Source: a virus. Taken from it: DNA of 23,465 nt. This document shows positions 1,847-20,655 of the stretch, piece after piece. Location of the stretch: the IMG/VR virus record IMGVR_UViG_3300047666_000147, positions 1-23,465 of that record, one strand, 5' to 3'. The notes below the pieces were generated by a model. It did not search any database and was not told the DNA's origin. It saw nothing but the letters and a program-made list of their open reading frames with translations. Numbering within the stretch: position 1 is the stretch's first letter; the number at the start of each line of letters is the position of its first letter. The translations under genes were made by a program, and so were the position numbers.

Positions 1847-4786
1847 TTAAATGCCATACCTAAAACTATAATTAAGCGCAGTAGCTGTAGACCCTGCGTC
1901 TTTTACTACAGTTATAACCTCGTCAATCTCACCGAATATCGGGCCTCTGTCTCCTGCGGCTCCGCTTCTTACTCCCACTGAGAAAGCGCCCGGATCAAGC
2001 GCTCCGGCATTATCATCAAGAGTGCCGCCAGATATCAACACATTAACCCCAGAATTAACAGTGATTGCAGGCTCTCCAGGGAAAGCAGAAGTTACCAAGA
2101 ACTCAAGCATTGCCCTTTGCCCACTGGGAGGGGTTAATGTTATAAGTGTTCCGCTTGTACCGCTAGCAACTGTTAAATTTGTCCCCATTGTTTTAGTTAT
2201 AAACATCGAATTTCCTACCTCTATTCCAAAGAAATTAGTAGGGTCATTACTAGATAAAAACCCTGTAACTTTTTTATTGCCGCTACCGCTTACAGCTTGA
2301 TAGCCAGATGTTGCAGACCATTTTGTAAAGTCTAAAGTGTGCACTGCTGCCGCCGCTGTACGTGACTTGTAAAACAATGAGTCGTCAATGTTCAAATTCA
2401 TAGGCAGTAGATAATCAGCAGAACCGTTGTCTAACATCCTAACTCTACAGTTGCTTAACCTCACATACAATTCAGTAGGTCTAGTATTAGCCACGTCGTC
2501 AAGTATAAGCACTTCGCTGTCTGTGATGTTTACATTACCGTTTACAGCTATTGCAGCCGCCACGCCGTTGCAGTTATCAATGTTAATTTGTGGCCTAAGC
2601 GCGTCAACTCTTGTAGCCCATCCCGCATCAGCCATTGCCAAATCTCCGCCAAACTTAACTATCTCAAGCGTAGTGTTTGGAACAGAGGTTCTTAGGTTTA
2701 TGCAATTGTTGATGTTTTTAATATTAACAATCTGGTTGTAATCACCGTCTGACACATCAGTTGCATTATAAAGCGCTTTGATTCTAGCGCCGTAATGCTT
2801 GGGCGGTAAATAGGCCAGTATTGCCATGCCTGATATTGGCTTTGAAAACCCACAATCTTCAACGTTAATAGTATGTGCTATGTAGTAGTCGTTGTTTGTG
2901 TTTTCGCCGAACTCATAATTAACCATGATCCAATCTTTATCTATAGTTGCATATCGTGTTGGGTCGTCTAGCTGGATAGTTACGTTTTTAACTGTAACGC
3001 TACGGCCAAGTATTGTGGCCCTGCCATAGTCAGTATTGCCGCCTGTGAACGGAAATTTAACAACAGATAAGTCTTTTGAAAAACTATCAGTGAAGTCTGC
3101 GCCAATGATTATTTCTAAGCCATCAACTAAAATATCACCGTCCCATTCTGAACCGTAATCTATACGGGTTTGGACTATAGAATATTGAGGAGAGTCGCCG
3201 ACAACGCTTGAAGAGTTAGCCAGGAAGTATCTACATTTCTTAATAGTTAGCTGATTACCACCTGACATTAACGCGCCCCAGTTGTGAAGGTCGCAATTCT
3301 CAAGGGTTATATCAAATCCGGCCCAGTGGATATCATACCTGTTTAGTGAGCATTCTCTAAACGTAACATTTTTAAGGTAGTTAAGACCAGATGCACCCCA
3401 CCCATGTGTACCAACACAGTTAATATAGCGCCAGTTAGCTCCTACATTACCGCCGAATAGGTATAAACCTTCTGGGACAGTTGTCTGAGTCCATGCTTCA
3501 CCACGAATATTGTTCCATTCAATATCATAACTGCCTATTGCCGCAAAAAATGTTCTGCTAAAGGTGGTTACTGGCTGGTCTACAATCTCTTTTACTATAC
3601 TGTTTTGTAAAGTTACATTGTGTCTATTTCTAATCACAAGGGCGCGCACATCTGCTACGCCGTCTAATATCCATGCGGGGCTGTTTATAACCAGCCTGAA
3701 ATCGTCTTGCGGGTATATAGTACAAGCAGTGAGTCCATCACTAAAGTCTTTAGCAATGGGAGTTTGTAAGCCACCATTGTCTGCTATAACTAGTAATTCT
3801 ATTTTGTTTAAAACTACACCTGTGGAACGAGTAATATCAGCCTGACCATCTAGCCTAACCCCTGCGTTTTTATAAGCAGAGAATATTGAGGTGGGCAGCT
3901 TAGTGCTGTCTTTCTTTAGCAAATAAGCAAATGTAGTATTTAACTCAGTTAAGTCCGCAGCCCCTAAGACTACTGGGGTTGTGTAAGATTCTATTTCAAA
4001 TAAATAACGGAAGTCTGCTGATGGGTAGCCACTGCCAGCTCTTAAAACAATATTAGCACCCACCATATCCCAGTTGGTCTTAACGGCAATACTATAGGGT
4101 GATGTAGCTCTAGCTGCTAGGTAAAAAGTCCCAAAGCTTTGACGAACAGGGATTACTTTTAAGTTTGCATACGCATGGCAATTAAAAGCTGATAGCCAAG
4201 AGTCAGCAACGCCGGTTGAGTCTGCTCCAAACTGAGTATATGAAACCTCTCCACCCGTTAGAATATCCCACCTAACGCCGTCAGTGGCTACAAAATAACC
4301 GCCTCCGTCCGTGTCGCCTGGGGTTCCCGTTACTGTTGTTTTTACATAATCAGCAGCGCCAATACCTACGCTAGTTGAATAATATCCTCTCGTTGATACC
4401 ATGTTAAATGAACTTAATACGGTTGAGGCTTTCATTAAATCAAATGAATTAAACGACAACTGAACCGAATCAAAACTTGCAGGAAATGCACCAGTAACGT
4501 TATCAGCCACTCTTATTGCGCTTGATGTGTCGTTAGCATCGGCCTCAGCTTCAGTAGGAAATAAGTAGGCATCGTAAAGGCCATCTACAAACGGTATAAA
4601 TATAGTGCCGCCTGCGGTTTCAAAAAAGCCTCTGTTTTTTACCTGCGCTTTAGCAATTAAAGTGTCGCCTGTTGCGTCGGTAGCCATGGACTTTGGAGTC
4701 GTTCCACCGGGCAAATAGAATTTAAGCCAGTAGAACTTATAATCTTGAAACTGAGGTGTTAAAAATGAAGTTGCTGAAAGTGCCAT
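1847..4786 (-). CDS. Tailspike, parallel beta-helix receptor-binding protein
   Basis: This 979-aa protein is the expected distal tail component that binds, and may cut, host surface polysaccharide. Residues 1 to about 120 look like a tailspike adaptor: a beta-rich stretch with YLPGGTTPKSMATDATGDTL and a GLYDAYLFP segment of the kind that joins the spike to the tail hub. A pectate-lyase-superfamily entry follows at about 182-202 (YTQFGADSTGVADSW), then a long run of short Ile/Val/Asn-rich strands (about 200-750) typical of a right-handed beta-helix. The last 120 residues are a separate beta-rich domain ending in YSFRYGI. The start is fixed by a TAATG overlap with the 619-aa gene. Catalytic residues cannot be assigned by eye. 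Confidence 0.8.
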   Translation of the reverse strand: MALSATSFLTPQFQDYKFYWLKFYLPGGTTPKSMATDATGDTLIAKAQVKNRGFFETAGGTIFIPFVDGLYDAYLFPTEAEADANDTSSAIRVADNVTGAFPASFDSVQLSFNSFDLMKASTVLSSFNMVSTRGYYSTSVGIGAADYVKTTVTGTPGDTDGGGYFVATDGVRWDILTGGEVSYTQFGADSTGVADSWLSAFNCHAYANLKVIPVRQSFGTFYLAARATSPYSIAVKTNWDMVGANIVLRAGSGYPSADFRYLFEIESYTTPVVLGAADLTELNTTFAYLLKKDSTKLPTSIFSAYKNAGVRLDGQADITRSTGVVLNKIELLVIADNGGLQTPIAKDFSDGLTACTIYPQDDFRLVINSPAWILDGVADVRALVIRNRHNVTLQNSIVKEIVDQPVTTFSRTFFAAIGSYDIEWNNIRGEAWTQTTVPEGLYLFGGNVGANWRYINCVGTHGWGASGLNYLKNVTFRECSLNRYDIHWAGFDITLENCDLHNWGALMSGGNQLTIKKCRYFLANSSSVVGDSPQYSIVQTRIDYGSEWDGDILVDGLEIIIGADFTDSFSKDLSVVKFPFTGGNTDYGRATILGRSVTVKNVTIQLDDPTRYATIDKDWIMVNYEFGENTNNDYYIAHTINVEDCGFSKPISGMAILAYLPPKHYGARIKALYNATDVSDGDYNQIVNIKNINNCINLRTSVPNTTLEIVKFGGDLAMADAGWATRVDALRPQINIDNCNGVAAAIAVNGNVNITDSEVLILDDVANTRPTELYVRLSNCRVRMLDNGSADYLLPMNLNIDDSLFYKSRTAAAAVHTLDFTKWSATSGYQAVSGSGNKKVTGFLSSNDPTNFFGIEVGNSMFITKTMGTNLTVASGTSGTLITLTPPSGQRAMLEFLVTSAFPGEPAITVNSGVNVLISGGTLDDNAGALDPGAFSVGVRSGAAGDRGPIFGEIDEVITVVKDAGSTATALNYSFRYGI

Positions 4787-6645: not shown

Positions 6646-7862
6646 TATATTTGATTCCCTTGAGCGTCAAATCTTATAATAACTGGCTTTTCTTTTGTTT
6701 CTTTTTTCAACTGGTTTCTGTCACTAGCAGCTTCAAATACATTTCGTATTTTTCTTAATTCTCTACGCGCTCGCTCATCACTAATTAATGGGTTATTTAA
6801 CACTGTGGCTGATTCTGCTAGTATTTTTTGCTCTCCATCACTGATAGTCCCTTGACCTTTTAATTTCTGGCGTGATTCCAATGTTAACAAGCCTTTTATC
6901 TGGTTAATATCCGCTATAGCATCAATTGAAGCTTGTGACTTTGCTATGTCAGGCGTGTTTGTAACTATCTTACCAAACGCAGCAGAAAATCTATCGCCAG
7001 CAAGTAAGGAAGAGACCTGCGAAACTGCTGAGTCTGCCTCTGATCTTCGTGAATTTTTAGAATTTATAGCGTCTTGCTTTTGTTGCTCATTTTTAATTTT
7101 AGTTTCGTCAATATTTAATCGCCTAGACTCTATGCCTTGCCTGCCTCCTTCCGTTTCTTGCTCTAATCTTTGCGCTTCTGCTATTTTAACGTCTGACTTG
7201 GCTTGCTCTGTTGCTGTAGATTCAGAACCTTTCTGTGTTGCAACTTGAGCACCTAATGTTTGGTTAGTTGCTATTCTTTCTGCCGCTGATGTTGATGCTC
7301 CAGGGTTGACCCTTAACTTTATCAATGCAGCATTTCTTTCTACATCTGATGAGCTTGGGTTTTGAGCAATATTTAATAGGTTTTGAAATTCTCTAGTGCC
7401 TGCTGATGCGCCTGAGCCTTGCTGCTGCCGCACCAATCCTTCAACAGCCATGATGTCCCCCATCACGCCTTGCAAATCGCCAGCCTTTAACTTTTCTAAT
7501 GTTTCCATTGATTCGGTTACATCTTCGCCTGAACCTTGCTCTATCCTGTCTTGTATTTGAGATATATTGTTAAGCAAGAAAAGTTCAGCGCCTTGTGCGT
7601 CACCCGCTGCAATCAATGGCTTCAATCTCTGGCCTGTTTGATGTATATTTGTTAGTCGCTGCTTGTCGCGGTTCTGGTTTATAGTCTGCTCATTAAGCGC
7701 CATGCTCTGCTCGTTAAGAGCTAGCCCTTGTTCGCCAGCCGCTAAACCTTGTTCGCCAGCCGCTAAACCTTGTTGCTGGTTCTTAATGTCATAGAACATC
7801 TTAGCAACGTTAACTTGCGGGGCTACTGTGGCAGCTAGTGAGATGCGTGGATCAATCGCCAT
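6645..7862 (-). CDS. DNA ejection protein, P22 gp20-like position
   Basis: This 405-aa protein is rich in Gln, Ala and Glu and predicted to be largely helical. Near the N-terminus (about 29-58) it has a seven-residue repeat, GLAAGEQ, GLAAGEQ, GLALNEQ, SMALNEQ, consistent with a heptad helix. Long charged helices follow (about 210-270 and 330-395). It has no signal peptide or clear TM segment. Placement between two other internal virion proteins with TAATG overlaps on both sides suggests it is packaged in the head and injected. The family is not recognised from sequence alone. Confidence 0.65.
   Translation of the reverse strand: MAIDPRISLAATVAPQVNVAKMFYDIKNQQQGLAAGEQGLAAGEQGLALNEQSMALNEQTINQNRDKQRLTNIHQTGQRLKPLIAAGDAQGAELFLLNNISQIQDRIEQGSGEDVTESMETLEKLKAGDLQGVMGDIMAVEGLVRQQQGSGASAGTREFQNLLNIAQNPSSSDVERNAALIKLRVNPGASTSAAERIATNQTLGAQVATQKGSESTATEQAKSDVKIAEAQRLEQETEGGRQGIESRRLNIDETKIKNEQQKQDAINSKNSRRSEADSAVSQVSSLLAGDRFSAAFGKIVTNTPDIAKSQASIDAIADINQIKGLLTLESRQKLKGQGTISDGEQKILAESATVLNNPLISDERARRELRKIRNVFEAASDRNQLKKETKEKPVIIRFDAQGNQI
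7726..7775 (-). repeat. 21-bp tandem repeat in an ejection protein gene
   Basis: Two exact 21-bp units (7726-7746 and 7747-7767) are followed by the first 7-8 bases of a third. Each unit encodes one GLAAGEQ heptad on the minus strand. Further degenerate units (GLALNEQ, SMALNEQ) lie next to them, so the array probably grew by slippage in steps that keep the frame and the helix register. Confidence 0.9.
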
Positions 7863-15826: not shown

Positions 15827-15977
15827 GTTGCACCAATTCTATTGATTCTTTAAAAAATAAATCTAAAGTCTTTCCATATTTATTAGTATAAAAAAGGACT
15901 TGAGTTAATGATTTACCTGTAACTAGGTATCTATCATAATCCCCATTTGTTTTTAATTTTCTAAATCTAACTTTCAT
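15819..15977 (-). CDS. 52-aa small protein coupled to the portal gene
   Basis: The frame runs from ATG 15977 to TGA 15819. The ATG overlaps the portal stop as ATGA, and the end overlaps the next start by 8 nt, so it fills the space between the two genes exactly. The product is basic at the N-terminus (MKVRFRKLKTNGDYDRYLVTG) and ends FFKESIELVQHD. Strand-helix order is plausible and no TM segment is seen. Its function is unknown. Confidence 0.7.
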   Translation of the reverse strand: MKVRFRKLKTNGDYDRYLVTGKSLTQVLFYTNKYGKTLDLFFKESIELVQHD

Positions 15978-18082
15978 AGGTTAACCGTTGTAGTTGCAGT
16001 CGTGTTGTCTGCAAACTCTGCGTTAAGGTCTTTGCCGTACTTCAATTCTAAATTAGTCAGTTTAAGAGATAAATCATCAATAGCTTTCTGGCTGTCAGCT
16101 TTTAACTTGGCAATAAATTTAGCGTTGTCAGACTGCAGCTTAGCTGCGTCTATTTGTTGTGTTGCCTGCGCCTTAATTAGGCTGGCCTGCGCTTTGATTT
16201 GTTCGGCTTCTGCCAATGGGTTTTGTAATCCCTGCATTTGCTCTTGAAGCTGCAGCACTAACTTGTTGAGTATTTCATTCTCTGCTTTGAGTGTTTCGCT
16301 TGGCTCATCTGGATCGTTAAAGAACTCGTTAACTCTTGGAAATCCAATCCCCTCAACCATTCTTGATAGCGTGTTATAGCCTTTCTTCTCATCTGCTAAC
16401 GTTGAGCCTTGCTGGATTAGTGACTGCTGTATGCTGTAAATGCCTTGAAGTGATTGCAAAGACTTTTCGTTATCGCCTGCACCTAAACCAACATTAGATT
16501 GAACATGGTGGTTATACTTCCAGCCTTTAGGGTTAACAGTTAGCGCCTTACCTAACACTCTAAACTCTTGCTCTGTGTTTTGGTAGCGTGAAACAATCCA
16601 GGCTATGCCCTCGTATAACTTTCTAAATCCAGTCTCACCATAGTTTCTGGCTATCAACTCAATCTTGGCATTGCTTGAATCGCGGGTATCTAAAGTCTTA
16701 GTAGCTGTCTCTTCGTTTAAATCATCTGCGTCTAAGCCTTGGTTAGCTAACAGTGAACCGGTAGCCGCTGCTCTTGTTGTGTCAACGTATTGAATAACCT
16801 GAAGCGCTTGCTGTCCGATGTATGGAACGACTAGCGGGAAAACTGCTTGAGCTGGCAATATTTGGCTGTCTTCGTCCATCCTTATAATGCCGTTCTGCCT
16901 AACTGTAAGCATATCGTCAAGGTCAACATCATTATGTACTACGTTACGTGGGTGGTTAACCATGTAGATATTATCGTTAACGCCACGCTGTAAAGCTGTT
17001 TTCTGCAATTGGTAAGGATATGTTATTTCTGCTCTACTTCTACCGATTGCCTTATGAGGCATAAGCACTGCTGATAATGAGGCGTAAGGCGTGTGATTAA
17101 AATACTCGTTGATTAGAACCTTGTTACCGGAAATCATAACGTGCCTACGCTCTGCTATTCCGTCACCGTCAAAGTCTACTTTTACATATAAGTCCGCTAT
17201 CTCTACAAACTGACTAGCCCAGTTGTTAATGTGGGTGTCATAGTTTGCACCGCCTTGGTCGCGGTTACGTACTGATTCAATGTTAGATGTTCTACGGTCT
17301 TCTTCTTCAACTGTTGATAGCTGGTTGATTAGTTCACGGTCGAAGCCTTCAGATAATAATTCGCCGCGAGTCTTCCTAACTCTATCCCCTACCATTTCAG
17401 CATCTTCAATGCTTCGAGCGTTTCGCGTTATTAGGAATGATTCGGTAGGTATGTTGATGATGCAAACTTTTTGCTTTTCAGTTGTTACTCTGAACTTAAC
17501 GTCAAATGTTGCAAGCCCGGCTTCAGATGTCGAGCCGTTTTCATTCTGCTCTGATACTTCAACCTTAACCTTGTCAACCTTAGCACCCTTTAAGCTTTCT
17601 ACGATTGCTTGAACTTCTTCAACGTCTACATTCTCATACTCTACTTCTTCAACTTCTTTCTGTTCTTCAATAAAGTATTTGACAACGCCATTCTTTTGAA
17701 TCTCAGCGTCTTTCAACCAGTCGTGGATAACCTTAAATGATTCGGGTTGATTGCGTACTATCCAATTAACATACTTAGTCTTTTCTTCAGCTTCTTTAAT
17801 CTCGGCTTCGTTCTCAGTGTTAGGCTGGAATGTAACCACATCACCTGAACCTAAGAAGATACGAGCTAGGCTAGGCATGTCAGCCTCAACCACATCAGCT
17901 ATATCTGTTGATACTACGCTTGATTGATTCTCTACTGCTGCAAACTCGCCGGTCTTTTCACCCATATAAGCGGATAGATAAATGGTATTAAGCTTTGAAA
18001 ACTCACCATTGTACTGCGCTGCATCATCTTGAGCCTCATCTAAGAGCGCTACAAGTTCAGAGTCAGACATCTTTTGCGGCAT
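15974..18082 (-). CDS. Portal protein
   Basis: This 702-aa protein is close in length to the P22 portal (about 725 aa) and sits where a portal is expected, before scaffold and capsid. It should form the twelve-subunit ring at one vertex through which DNA is packed. Characteristic parts include the start with DIADVVEADMPSLARIFLGSGDVVTF (about 59-84, in part), DWLKDAEIQKNGVVKYFIEE, a KVDFDGDGIAERRHV turn near 305, and the LMPHKAIGRSRAEITYPYQLQK core followed by NDNIYMVNHPR. Residues about 595-686 form a long helix rich in Ala, Gln and Lys, likely the barrel or crown above the ring. It follows the plus-strand island. A probable promoter lies about 40 bases upstream. Confidence 0.85.
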   Translation of the reverse strand: MPQKMSDSELVALLDEAQDDAAQYNGEFSKLNTIYLSAYMGEKTGEFAAVENQSSVVSTDIADVVEADMPSLARIFLGSGDVVTFQPNTENEAEIKEAEEKTKYVNWIVRNQPESFKVIHDWLKDAEIQKNGVVKYFIEEQKEVEEVEYENVDVEEVQAIVESLKGAKVDKVKVEVSEQNENGSTSEAGLATFDVKFRVTTEKQKVCIINIPTESFLITRNARSIEDAEMVGDRVRKTRGELLSEGFDRELINQLSTVEEEDRRTSNIESVRNRDQGGANYDTHINNWASQFVEIADLYVKVDFDGDGIAERRHVMISGNKVLINEYFNHTPYASLSAVLMPHKAIGRSRAEITYPYQLQKTALQRGVNDNIYMVNHPRNVVHNDVDLDDMLTVRQNGIIRMDEDSQILPAQAVFPLVVPYIGQQALQVIQYVDTTRAAATGSLLANQGLDADDLNEETATKTLDTRDSSNAKIELIARNYGETGFRKLYEGIAWIVSRYQNTEQEFRVLGKALTVNPKGWKYNHHVQSNVGLGAGDNEKSLQSLQGIYSIQQSLIQQGSTLADEKKGYNTLSRMVEGIGFPRVNEFFNDPDEPSETLKAENEILNKLVLQLQEQMQGLQNPLAEAEQIKAQASLIKAQATQQIDAAKLQSDNAKFIAKLKADSQKAIDDLSLKLTNLELKYGKDLNAEFADNTTATTTVNL

Positions 18083-18113
18083 TATTAATAACTCAATTAT
18101 TCGGTTAGCTTTA

Positions 18114-18142
18114 TTGCGCCATTATATATCATAGCGTACACT
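18114..18142 (+). promoter_or_regulatory. Candidate promoter for the plus-strand island
   Basis: TTGCGC (18114-18119) and TACACT (18137-18142) are 17 bp apart, a partial sigma-70 match, about 50 bases before the first island ATG at 18195. It is the only fair plus-strand candidate in the 112-bp divergent gap. It overlaps the candidate minus-strand promoter for the portal, so the two could interfere. Confidence 0.4.
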
Positions 18143-18149
18143 GTGAATA
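18121..18149 (-). promoter_or_regulatory. Candidate promoter for the portal unit
   Basis: On the minus strand TATAAT (18121-18126) is a perfect -10 box. The -35 position (18144-18149, TATTCA) matches the consensus weakly, at 17-bp spacing. The portal ATG lies about 38 bases downstream. Minus-strand transcription would need to restart here if transcripts from the terminase genes stop before or within the island. Confidence 0.45.
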
Positions 18150-18194
18150 TGTAGCGCATTCCGCGTTATCCATTGCGTTCTATCGGGGTAAGGC

Positions 18195-18398
18195 ATGAAA
18201 GTTAAAGAGTTAATTGAGTTTTTACAATTGCAAGACCAAAACCAAGAAGTTGCATACACTTGTATGAGTGAGCAGTGCACTCTTGACGAAGATGAAATTC
18301 AAATAGTTGACTTATGCGAGGAGCGTGAAGATGGCTGGATACAGAATAAAAGGCCAGATATGAAAACCAAAAAATACTTACTATTCCCGGGGAATTAA
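18195..18398 (+). CDS. Island gene 1: 67-aa acidic phage protein
   Basis: This small acidic protein begins MKVKELIEFLQLQDQNQEVAYT, the pattern of a widespread group of short phage proteins (M-V-x-E-L-I-x-x-L-x-x-x-D-x-x-E-V) with unknown role, and ends KKYLLFPGN. TAAGG lies just upstream of the ATG. It is the first of four plus-strand genes, separated from the next by 3 bases. No catalytic motif is visible. Confidence 0.75.
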   Translation: MKVKELIEFLQLQDQNQEVAYTCMSEQCTLDEDEIQIVDLCEEREDGWIQNKRPDMKTKKYLLFPGN

Positions 18399-18401
18399 AT
18401 T

Positions 18402-18809
18402 ATGAATAACACTGAGAAGAAACTAGACGCGCTAATTGATGCGCTGGGGTTTGATGTTGAGGAGAATGACGTGTTTCTTGTTAGGACTGACGGAACTGAC
18501 AAGCAACACTTACGCACTGATATTAAGCTTACTGAGCGTGATAAACCTGTAGCAGATGATGAGCCTGTGAATCACGAATGGACGGTTGACACTAACACGG
18601 GTTGCGCTTTTGATGATGAGCTTACAATAAACCTTGCTGAAACCGAGGCATTTAAGAATTTTGCATGTACAGCGCGCACTACCATTGTTTCATCTACAAT
18701 ATTAAAGCGTGAGTTACTTAAAATATTAGAAACGGCTGGGAAGAAGCCTAAAAAGGGAACCATTGCAATAATTGAGCACGCAATAGATAAGGCGTTTAAG
18801 AATGAATAA
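18402..18809 (+). CDS. Island gene 2: 135-aa protein, unknown function
   Basis: This soluble acidic protein has an N-terminal helix (TEKKLDALIDALGFDVEE), an acidic middle (about 40-80), and a C-terminal helical basic part (LKRELLKILETAGKKPKKGTIAIIEHAIDKAFKNE, about 101-135, in part). GGGGA, about 8 nt before the ATG, is a good ribosome site. It follows island gene 1 with a 3-base gap, and the 53-aa gene starts inside its last codons. No family is recognised. Confidence 0.7.
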   Translation: MNNTEKKLDALIDALGFDVEENDVFLVRTDGTDKQHLRTDIKLTERDKPVADDEPVNHEWTVDTNTGCAFDDELTINLAETEAFKNFACTARTTIVSSTILKRELLKILETAGKKPKKGTIAIIEHAIDKAFKNE

Positions 18810-18963
18810 GTTCACCCTAATCATCTACAACAAAGGATGGACAGTTAAAGAAGCTTGCCAGCACTGGGGTATTAGATACGAGACATATAACCGTCACTGT
18901 AATAGTGAGAAGTTTGCTAATCGGCTAGAGTCAATGTGTAATGGATTGGAGGATAGATTGTGA
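18802..18963 (+). CDS. Island gene 3: 53-aa helix-turn-helix-like protein
   Basis: The frame runs from ATG 18802, overlapping the end of island gene 2 by 8 nt, to TGA 18963. Residues 11-32 (KGWTVKEACQHWGIRYETYNRH, in part) read as a compact helix-turn-helix: a helix with EACQHWG, a turn at GIR, and a recognition-like helix YETYNRHC. Short phage proteins of this type are common and usually uncharacterised. It may bind DNA and control nearby transcription. That is inference from shape only. Confidence 0.65.
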   Translation: MNKFTLIIYNKGWTVKEACQHWGIRYETYNRHCNSEKFANRLESMCNGLEDRL

Positions 18964-19115
18964 TTAAACAATATACTTTACTATTTTTAATTTGCTGCTC
19001 GACCTTCTTGTTGCTGCCAATAGATAAACCATTAAACGCTTATTATTTACTCATTATGGTTTTATTTGCTGGTGGCATTACATTGAAAGCTTGGTGTGTG
19101 CTTAAACAACGTTAG
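18960..19115 (+). CDS. Island gene 4: 51-aa small membrane protein
   Basis: The frame starts with GTG at 18960, which overlaps the stop of island gene 3 as GTGA, and has GGAGG (18948-18952) exactly 7 nt upstream, an excellent ribosome site. The product has two hydrophobic stretches (about 5-20 and 28-44) around a LPIDKPLN turn, so it is probably a hairpin membrane protein, with a short basic end (VLKQR). It ends 14 bases inside the 3' end of the convergent TerL gene. Exclusion, lysis-control or other accessory roles are possible. No family is recognised. Confidence 0.65.
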   Translation: MIKQYTLLFLICCSTFLLLPIDKPLNAYYLLIMVLFAGGITLKAWCVLKQR

Positions 19116-20655
19116 CCTTGCCATAGTTTAACGCTTTACGAGCTTTCTTAATCGGAGGCTTGAACATTAGCATCATTATACAGTCACCTTCGTTGGGTGA
19201 ATCTATTTTATTAGTTTTCATTTCCTTCTTGCTCATTATTTGCTGCAAGCCTTTACCGTTGGCTATTCTTGGTATCCTTGTTATCTGAGACCTTAAATCG
19301 ATTAGGTTTTCTATGCCTTCACTATCAAAGCTAATCATTTCATTTGGGTCTATGTAGTCACCCCTGACAACGCATTTATAAGTATTAAACATTAAGTCGG
19401 CTAATGTAATGTAATACTGTGACCTATTATTTAAGAATGTTTCTTGATATGTCTTAGGTAATTTATCTTTATCATCTTCTAGCTTTTGATATATCTTGTT
19501 TGCGTTGTCTTGCCCCTTTCCAGAAAGCGAACCTCTAAACCCGTGGAAATCAATCTTAGTGCCTTTAAAGTTGTCAGATATTTGACGTTTAAGACCTGTT
19601 CCCATGCCGTCCTCGTCCCATACGAACCAATCAGCACCATCATTTATTGCATGGTCTGTTGCCCAGTCGCACGTCTCGTCTATTGCGCCTTTATATTTAG
19701 ACCTTACCTTAGTTATTATAGAGCCGTGTCGCATAGCATAACCGCCTGCGTCCTCTCCGTCATTGAACGGGTCATGTGCTGCTATTTTGCACCCATGTGG
19801 CTCAAACACTTTCTTTAACCTTTCAATCTTATGGGCGTCTATACAAGCATCAAACCACTCACCTTTAATTATTGAATTTTCTACCTCATCCATATAATGA
19901 CCTCTCCACTTATGATCATACTCTGCCCTCGACATCTTATCGTAGTCATCAAGCCGCTCGACTTCTAGGCCAGATGCTATAAACCAGCTCTTAGGCATGT
20001 CGGTATAATTCATTTCAACAACCATTATACTGTCATCTTCATAATACCCGCACCGCTTCAGCTCTTTCTCTGCTCGAACAAGCCACTTTTTAGCTATGGC
20101 TCCGTCCCTTCTGCCTCGGTTCATAGTGATAATTATTTCGGGCATTTCAAAGCCTGATTCGGCTAGCAACTCATCCATTTGAGCTTGTGACTCTAGCTTT
20201 CTTCCATCAAGCAATCTTTCTGTATCTTCAGCGTTAAGCCTAACAGAGGCGGTAAGAACTCTTAGCGTGTTAGCTGATATATCCTCGCCTTCTTCTATCC
20301 ATAGTAAATCAACGCCTGATAGAGTGGATTTTAAAGATGTAATGTTTCTTGACAGACCTCTATAGAATGTACGACCACCGCTAACGTGAGTGATGGATGT
20401 TTTTGTATCTTCAAACCCAGTTATTTCAAGCCTGTTTATTTCATCAAGGATTGTTCTGTGGACTGACTCTTCAATTGAATTTTGGTTTTCCCTGGCACAG
20501 CAAACTAATTCACCGCTAGCTATTTTAGCCGCCACCAAGTCAGCTACGCCAGTTGATTTAGTTGAACCTCTACCTCCAACTATTATTTTTATTCTTTTAG
20601 GCTTTGTAAATATAGGGTGAAGGTTTTTGACGTACTTGATATCAATACTAGTCAT
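19102..20655 (-). CDS. Terminase large subunit (TerL, Terminase_3-like)
   Basis: This 517-aa DNA-packaging motor has both expected domains. The ATPase has Walker A G27-G-R-G-S-T-K-S34, a Walker B stretch LLWIEE (117-122) with catalytic Glu121 or Glu122, a FYRGLSRNITSLKS motif before it, and a coupling motif near ITMNR (176-180). The nuclease has three acidic sites: D295 (AAHDPFND), D347 (FVWDEDG) and D491 (GDCIMML), as expected for an RNase H-like fold that cuts concatemers. The length is normal. It overlaps TerS by 8 nt. A headful or a cos mechanism cannot be decided from the sequence alone. Its 3' end overlaps the convergent plus-strand membrane gene by 14 nt. Confidence 0.95.
   Translation of the reverse strand: MTSIDIKYVKNLHPIFTKPKRIKIIVGGRGSTKSTGVADLVAAKIASGELVCCARENQNSIEESVHRTILDEINRLEITGFEDTKTSITHVSGGRTFYRGLSRNITSLKSTLSGVDLLWIEEGEDISANTLRVLTASVRLNAEDTERLLDGRKLESQAQMDELLAESGFEMPEIIITMNRGRRDGAIAKKWLVRAEKELKRCGYYEDDSIMVVEMNYTDMPKSWFIASGLEVERLDDYDKMSRAEYDHKWRGHYMDEVENSIIKGEWFDACIDAHKIERLKKVFEPHGCKIAAHDPFNDGEDAGGYAMRHGSIITKVRSKYKGAIDETCDWATDHAINDGADWFVWDEDGMGTGLKRQISDNFKGTKIDFHGFRGSLSGKGQDNANKIYQKLEDDKDKLPKTYQETFLNNRSQYYITLADLMFNTYKCVVRGDYIDPNEMISFDSEGIENLIDLRSQITRIPRIANGKGLQQIMSKKEMKTNKIDSPNEGDCIMMLMFKPPIKKARKALNYGKANVV

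Follow-up and report, generated by a model that had tools for sequence, protein, structure and literature searches.

A probably portable cassette of small genes lying backwards between the portal and terminase genes of an IMG/VR virus: exchange between shared flanks and possible self-regulation

Operons of acr genes are found among the head genes of Mu-like phages of Pseudomonas. In acr-aca operons, as described in PMC9410906, small cargo genes are combined with a small helix-turn-helix (HTH) regulator of the operon's own promoter, and the Aca proteins and AcrIIA1 tabulated there range from 60 to 149 aa. Lambdoid morons are extra genes that separate two neighbours which adjoin each other in relatives (PMC4378225). 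In phage P22, immI (mnt, arc, ant, and sieA) lies between genes 16 and 9, and in large phages a bS21 gene occupies the reverse strand of the TerL-portal-capsid region (PMC9723584). The locus analyzed here is of a kind already known from morons, acr-aca operons, and P22 immI. Its combination of antisense orientation, an HTH gene of its own, an outward -10-like hexamer, and exchange between shared flanks was not recognized in the literature covered, from which most subscription papers were absent.

The window, i.e., the whole stretch of DNA that was analyzed, corresponds to a 23,465-base virus record of IMG/VR. Four coupled genes occupy positions 18195-19115 on its plus strand, between an SU10-type portal gene (15974..18082; SU10_portal, 4.5e-148) and a TerL gene (19102..20655; phrog_2, 8e-25; Terminase_3, 2e-18), both on the minus strand. 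Inspection confirmed the plus-strand island inside the packaging module that an earlier note on this DNA had described, with all four open reading frames in place and with exact couplings consisting of a 3-nt gap between genes 1 and 2, an 8-nt overlap of genes 2 and 3, and a 4-nt GTGA overlap of genes 3 and 4; the GGAGG assigned to gene 4 was found at 18948-18952, seven nt before its GTG. The island genes point away from the divergent portal gene and head-on into the end of the convergent TerL gene, whose 3' end overlaps gene 4 by 14 nt. The GC content of the island was 38.3%, compared to 41.8% for the window, in which no Rfam match reached the gathering score.

Gene 1 (18195..18398, plus strand) encodes a 67-aa acidic protein (pI 4.4) that matched phrog_5861 (2e-8), a family of unknown function. 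Gene 2 (18402..18809, plus strand) encodes a 135-aa acidic protein (pI 4.9) with a conserved N-terminus and a variable tail, and gene 3 (18802..18963, plus strand) a 53-aa HTH-type protein of the HTH1 family, a candidate autoregulator. Gene 4 (18960..19115, plus strand) starts with GTG and encodes a 51-aa protein that is both hydrophobic and basic (pI 9.3, GRAVY 1.09). Like lambdoid morons, the island lies between genes that are adjacent in relatives. Its position between TerL and portal differs from that of P22 immI, and no clear relatives of mnt, arc, ant, or sieA were found by name in PHROGs or Pfam among the window genes. The reverse-strand placement is shared with the bS21 gene, which differs in being one ribosomal-protein gene, linked to late-stage replication in the title of PMC9723584, for which neither an HTH gene nor exchange is noted in the passages of that paper covered here.

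Relatives of the window's TerL and portal genes were common in IMG/VR contigs, and all matches in named phages showed less than 60% identity. Loci were searched with five family profiles (three HTH types, a Zn-ribbon family, and the N-terminus of gene 2), and gene roles in unannotated contigs were assigned from size and context. Cassette families were detected in 25 of 67 unique TerL-portal junctions, counts that are not frequencies because many loci were found via the cassette genes themselves. The smallest gap in these 25 junctions was 254 bp; among the 42 junctions without cassette families, 40 gaps measured -1 to 196 bp and two measured 443 and 496 bp. The junction count left out 18 of 85 unique portal contexts that lacked a TerL end; duplicates were removed by exact sequence, and near-identical contigs remain (e.g., L092/L094/L135 and L147/L150). 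The island is therefore optional, its absence from these 42 junctions being the opposite of conservation in all relatives, the outcome that the earlier note had named as speaking against an accessory cassette. That designation was upheld by presence or absence among relatives, by exchange, and by the recurrence of its gene families elsewhere, in other phages as well as at different sites.

Portal identity to the window was 60-100% in the 25 cassette junctions and 37-66% in the others, a link that is partly a fetching effect because junctions were found via the window's own TerL or portal. TerL proteins of the cassette junctions fell into two groups, with 47-49% and 66-100% identity to that of the window. 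These values suggest joint movement of the cassette and the portal side, and an exchange of TerL at the far edge of the cassette. A TerL scan of GTDB genome contigs yielded five MAG contigs, one of them named Colwellia. This contig (L175, CAJXPG010000156.1), with a TerL relative of 49% identity, carries gene 2 and Zn-ribbon relatives antisense to their left neighbour and represents a possible host lead. Another relative, G005 (loci L241 and L242; 37,170 bp), has a 127-bp direct terminal repeat and encodes NinB, RusA, and DnaD-like proteins.

Pairwise comparison of loci revealed alike flanks around unlike middles. L086 and L134 shared a 679-bp stretch with 99.3% identity, which starts 8 bp ahead of the outward -10-like hexamer and continues into the portal gene as far as L134 extends, and they were 91.5% identical over 211 bp covering the Zn-ribbon gene that adjoins TerL. 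Between these flanks, the HTH type, the control region, and one gene differed. Four more pairs (L091/L097, L102/L096, L089/L095, and L104/L003) showed the same arrangement, with flanks 75-91% identical. The portal-side edge in these pairs coincided with the outward -10-like hexamer in three cases and with the portal ATG in L091/L097, while the other edge in L089/L095 was the TerL end and not the Zn-ribbon gene. In L096, the HTH2 frame holds a 45-bp stretch with an 87% match to the end of an HTH1 gene, a remnant. The cassettes are read as alleles that would have been exchanged by recombination at shared edges.

A candidate divergent control region (18083..18194, no strand assigned) lies between the portal start and gene 1, and its presence makes independent expression of the cassette plausible. 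A consensus promoter scan of 18083-18194 gave no hits. The region contains an outward -10-like hexamer, TATAAT (18121..18126, minus strand), 44 nt before the portal ATG. Such a hexamer, 30-80 bp before the portal ATG, was present in all 25 cassette junctions and in 8 of 42 non-cassette junctions (p 8e-12, in a test that compares non-coding with partly coding DNA). In 15 hand-picked HTH-first cassettes elsewhere, an outward -10 was found upstream of the HTH gene in all 15, against 4.5 expected from pair-block shuffles, and an inward -10 in five. A terminator-like site was found inside TerL (19184-19200), a single occurrence where 0.8 were expected by chance.

Allowing one mismatch, 18 of 20 unique hits to the motif TATAATANGTNAAAC in the loci collected lay on the divergent side of a cassette gene and no more than 1.4 kb away from it, compared to at most two hits at that side for 60 permuted motifs. 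Only this location was extreme: the permuted motifs averaged 7 hits in total and reached 19. In 20 whole records, nine hits were found in eight records, seven of them at cassette edges and two away from them (G009:23633 and G012:39624); the motif was absent from the remaining 12 records, some of them cassette-bearing. The window keeps only the TATAAT of the outward motif and not its AnGTnAAAC part.

Control-region motifs chosen by eye were found upstream of the HTH gene in 7/7 H2, 5/5 H3, 7/8 H1b, and 3/4 H1c loci, one H1b locus also fitting the H1c motif, with a background of 0 to 12 in 1200 random stretches. For H1a, the type of the window, the motif occurred upstream of the HTH gene in 2/10 cases and at 4/7 junctions, and none of the motifs was found for H1d (11 loci) or other HTH1 members (3 loci), nor in any of nine junctions whose cassette has no HTH gene. 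The H2 motif accompanies HTH2 at other cassette sites as well (L009, L012, and L229). For several types, these by-eye motifs suggest that the control-region type follows the HTH type, a pairing consistent with an HTH protein that controls the promoter from which it is expressed. The window also carries a dyad-like element, TAGCGC-N5-GCGTTA (18152..18168, plus strand), a candidate operator that did not rise above shuffles; it was matched in three other H1a-type junctions, giving 4/7 in all. Palindromic operators were rejected as a per-locus signal, as the best inverted repeats exceeded shuffles at 0 of 27 loci (p 0.08-1.0).

Orientation and gene content were linked. Among 88 cassettes left after removal of exact duplicates, 23 of which had only one flank, 46 of the 63 antisense cassettes had an HTH gene, as against one of the 24 sense cassettes, and one cassette was mixed (Fisher 2.5e-9). 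The single sense exception, L166, proved to be antisense on inspection, which changed these counts to 47 of 64 and 0 of 23. The HTH gene preceded the Zn-ribbon gene in all 27 cassettes in which both were found. Small hydrophobic proteins recurred in the cassettes. The Zn-ribbon family was weakly FmdB-type: at a threshold of 0.1, 13 of 18 members matched Pfam Zn_ribbon_8, with 5e-4 as the best value and 19 bits for the first member against a cut-off of 34. A profile search found no relative in the window. A hairpin in the Zn-ribbon gene of L086 was discarded, as it was not kept in the codons of most other relatives.

The same families also occurred at other places in head-gene regions: in L147-L150 they separate scaffold-like from minor-head-like genes, in L165, L169, L187, and L208 scaffold-like from portal-like genes, and in L004 and L009 they come after the portal gene. 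Neither the TerL nor the portal of the window had a match in L147-L150, L165, and L169 (L149 and L148 read as one type). In L224, L226, L228, L232, and L235, gene 2 relatives lie on the same strand as, and between, portal-sized and scaffold-sized genes and are followed by a small protein of type MKTYKSSDLTHKRAEV or MKKFNA(G/S)DLSKKPS; a Phd/YefM-like assignment of the small protein in L226 was dropped, as Pfam gave no match at 0.1. One Zn-ribbon, one gene 2, and one HTH2 member, when compared with named phages, gave no match.

With its coupled small genes and the HTH-type model of gene 3, the island may be likened to acr-aca operons. In contrast to those operons, the cassettes run against the late operon in most contigs examined, place the HTH gene before that for the Zn-ribbon protein and often at the very front, although it is the third of four genes in the window, while aca genes come after acr genes, have an outward -10 towards the downstream genes, and contain no known Acr. 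From lambdoid morons they differ in being multi-gene and antisense, and in having an HTH gene of their own, allelic exchange, and the outward -10.

Gene 3 is a real coding gene as judged from its sequence, under clear coding constraint: differences from five relatives were distributed over codon positions as 44/39/118, with a nominal p of 1.6e-13 for comparisons that are not independent because all include the window gene. The predicted structure of this basic protein (pI 8.6) consisted of four helices in an HTH-type arrangement (mean pLDDT 88), in agreement with the helix-turn-helix-like character noted from the sequence. The highest-ranked solved look-alikes of the model were Aca1 and lambda-repressor-type proteins. 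In a second-look structure comparison, Aca1 entries came out on top (Z 5.5-5.9), with an unrelated dioxygenase just below them (Z 5.0-5.2). Foldseek gave no match to the model at E < 0.001, and in a sequence search of the PDB with E up to 1 no Aca was found, so that a sequence relation to solved Acas went undetected. At 53 aa, gene 3 also falls below the Aca sizes tabulated in PMC9410906. The Aca1 likeness of the model is weak and would support a protein that works like Aca1 rather than membership of that family. A weak match to a PADLOC candidate (0.0089) was also obtained. HTH1 members showed weak matches to terminase-small-subunit profiles (best 0.0049) and also to excisionases.

Gene 4 contains two hydrophobic stretches, which fit the two-TM hairpin predicted for it from sequence; this much of its earlier description as a two-TM protein stood, the hairpin itself remaining a prediction. 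The suggestion in the earlier note that genes 3 and 4 form an exclusion or control pair was not borne out. Gene 3 matched 28 of 138 sequences searched and gene 4 only three, two of which were the window itself, and the cassette of the sole gene 4 relative, a contig seen in loci L107 and L238, has no recognized HTH gene. A control role for gene 3 alone is likelier than a gene 3/gene 4 pair. Alignment of gene 2 with 19 relatives identified two features common to the family, the N-terminal ~20 residues and a motif resembling DYKLTKR, which reads DIKLTER in the window; the middle stretch and tail varied strongly in both length and sequence. Its model comprised an N-terminal helix and a beta hairpin, with block pLDDT values of 86-88 for residues 1-40 and 44-49 for residues 51-80. 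A fold search returned nothing convincing, and tblastn against phages with E up to 1 gave no match. None of the window's four proteins had a confident match to a defence or anti-defence family.

Neighbours of gene 3 relatives in named Vibrio phages gave clues to cargo function. In the cultured Vibrio phage 13VT501A, a gene 3 relative precedes a 212-aa gene, after which comes, on the strand of the gene 3 relative, a gene for a Lar restriction-alleviation protein (PF14354, 1.4e-7, over the cut-off). A two-gene unit consisting of a 264-269-aa protein and an HTH protein is found in antisense orientation within the head genes of Vibrio phage 1.131.O and, in 1.165.O and 1.168.O, amid replication/recombination genes; two of these three larger proteins were scanned and showed weak, below-cut-off matches to DndB. 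The Lar and DndB neighbours point to phage-host conflict as a possible cargo function; for genes 1, 2, and 4 of the window such a role would be an extrapolation. Among the six named Vibrio phages with gene 3 relatives, the gene was antisense in one only, 3' of TerL on the same strand in three, and in replication/recombination regions in two. Since the HTH gene lies on its neighbours' strand in five of these six, it does not need an antisense setting, a result that speaks against the orientation pattern seen in the contigs.

On balance, we lean slightly towards reading the island as a portable, self-regulated cassette of the moron type, similar to acr-aca operons, with small, variable cargo that is perhaps anti-defence. 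The island would represent one allele, lying backwards in the late head operon of a phage group represented chiefly by environmental contigs, and such cassettes would consist of small cargo genes and an HTH protein of ~53 aa. The control region most likely holds two opposed promoters, one directed into the cassette and one outward, the latter of which would drive the late genes downstream of the interruption. Most likely, the HTH protein binds close to the promoter of the cassette and, once an initial burst of expression has passed, represses the operon that encodes it, in the manner of Aca proteins from anti-CRISPR operons. Repression of this kind would protect late expression from transcription running towards TerL. 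The most likely role of the cargo is to aid the phage against defences of the host or against competing phages.

An unlikely alternative is that the cassette is a prophage-expressed moron, active in the lysogen and silent during lytic growth, that serves lysogenic conversion or superinfection exclusion; the hydrophobic protein would then be the excluder, as sieA is in P22 immI. The site within the late operon and the occurrence of small regulators and of hydrophobic proteins are consistent with this, as are a weak match of gene 2 to a CopG-like repressor profile (0.08) and a tyrosine integrase in the cassette-bearing record G007. Against these observations stand the 20 related records, only two of which encode a tyrosine integrase and none a resolvase-type one; the 37-kb relative G005 has neither type, although records may be fragments and lysogeny without an integrase is possible. 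Moreover, no gene 3 relative was found in GTDB genome contigs, where 32 stretches fitted the pattern scanned and none was confirmed as a relative.

We consider it a shade less probable still that these are head-associated genes, with the Zn-ribbon protein, the gene 2 family, or a terminase-small-subunit-like gene 3 acting in assembly or packaging, such that the site near terminase, portal, and scaffold would reflect function. The weak terminase-small-subunit matches of HTH1 members point in this direction, and Zn-ribbon and gene 2 relatives do occur on the same strand, without an HTH gene, both directly after portal-sized genes and between portal-sized and scaffold-sized genes. Absence of the cassette from many relatives and its variable gene content argue against an assembly role, and the Zn-ribbon protein had no structural-family match. 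Least probable, and in our estimate quite improbable, is a mobile unit, spread chiefly by homing nucleases, that persists because the nuclease cuts empty junctions, with the cargo genes as passengers. An HNH_3 gene in the L137 cassette (6884-7360, minus strand; 2.9e-10), a weak, below-cut-off GIY-YIG match in the L208 cassette (4195-4620, plus strand), and shortened HNH-like relatives recognized by eye in L100 and L016 would agree with such a unit. The window's four proteins, however, matched no nuclease family, other cassette proteins having been sampled only, and the exchange tracts fit ordinary recombination at shared flanks.

Beyond the reading of the island as a self-regulated cassette, we put forward, tentatively and with considerable doubt, that it belongs to a new and widespread class of exchangeable, backward, self-silencing anti-defence islands in which an outward promoter repairs the late operon. 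If this is true, the HTH types would be new families of Aca-like regulators and could serve as bait for unknown anti-defence genes. Vibrio phages 1.131.O and 13VT501A, whose gene 3 relatives are in public records, would make the proposal testable. It would show how independently controlled genes can enter the most conserved operon of phages without breaking it, and would provide families of regulators as markers for candidate anti-defence genes in viruses that are mostly metagenomic.
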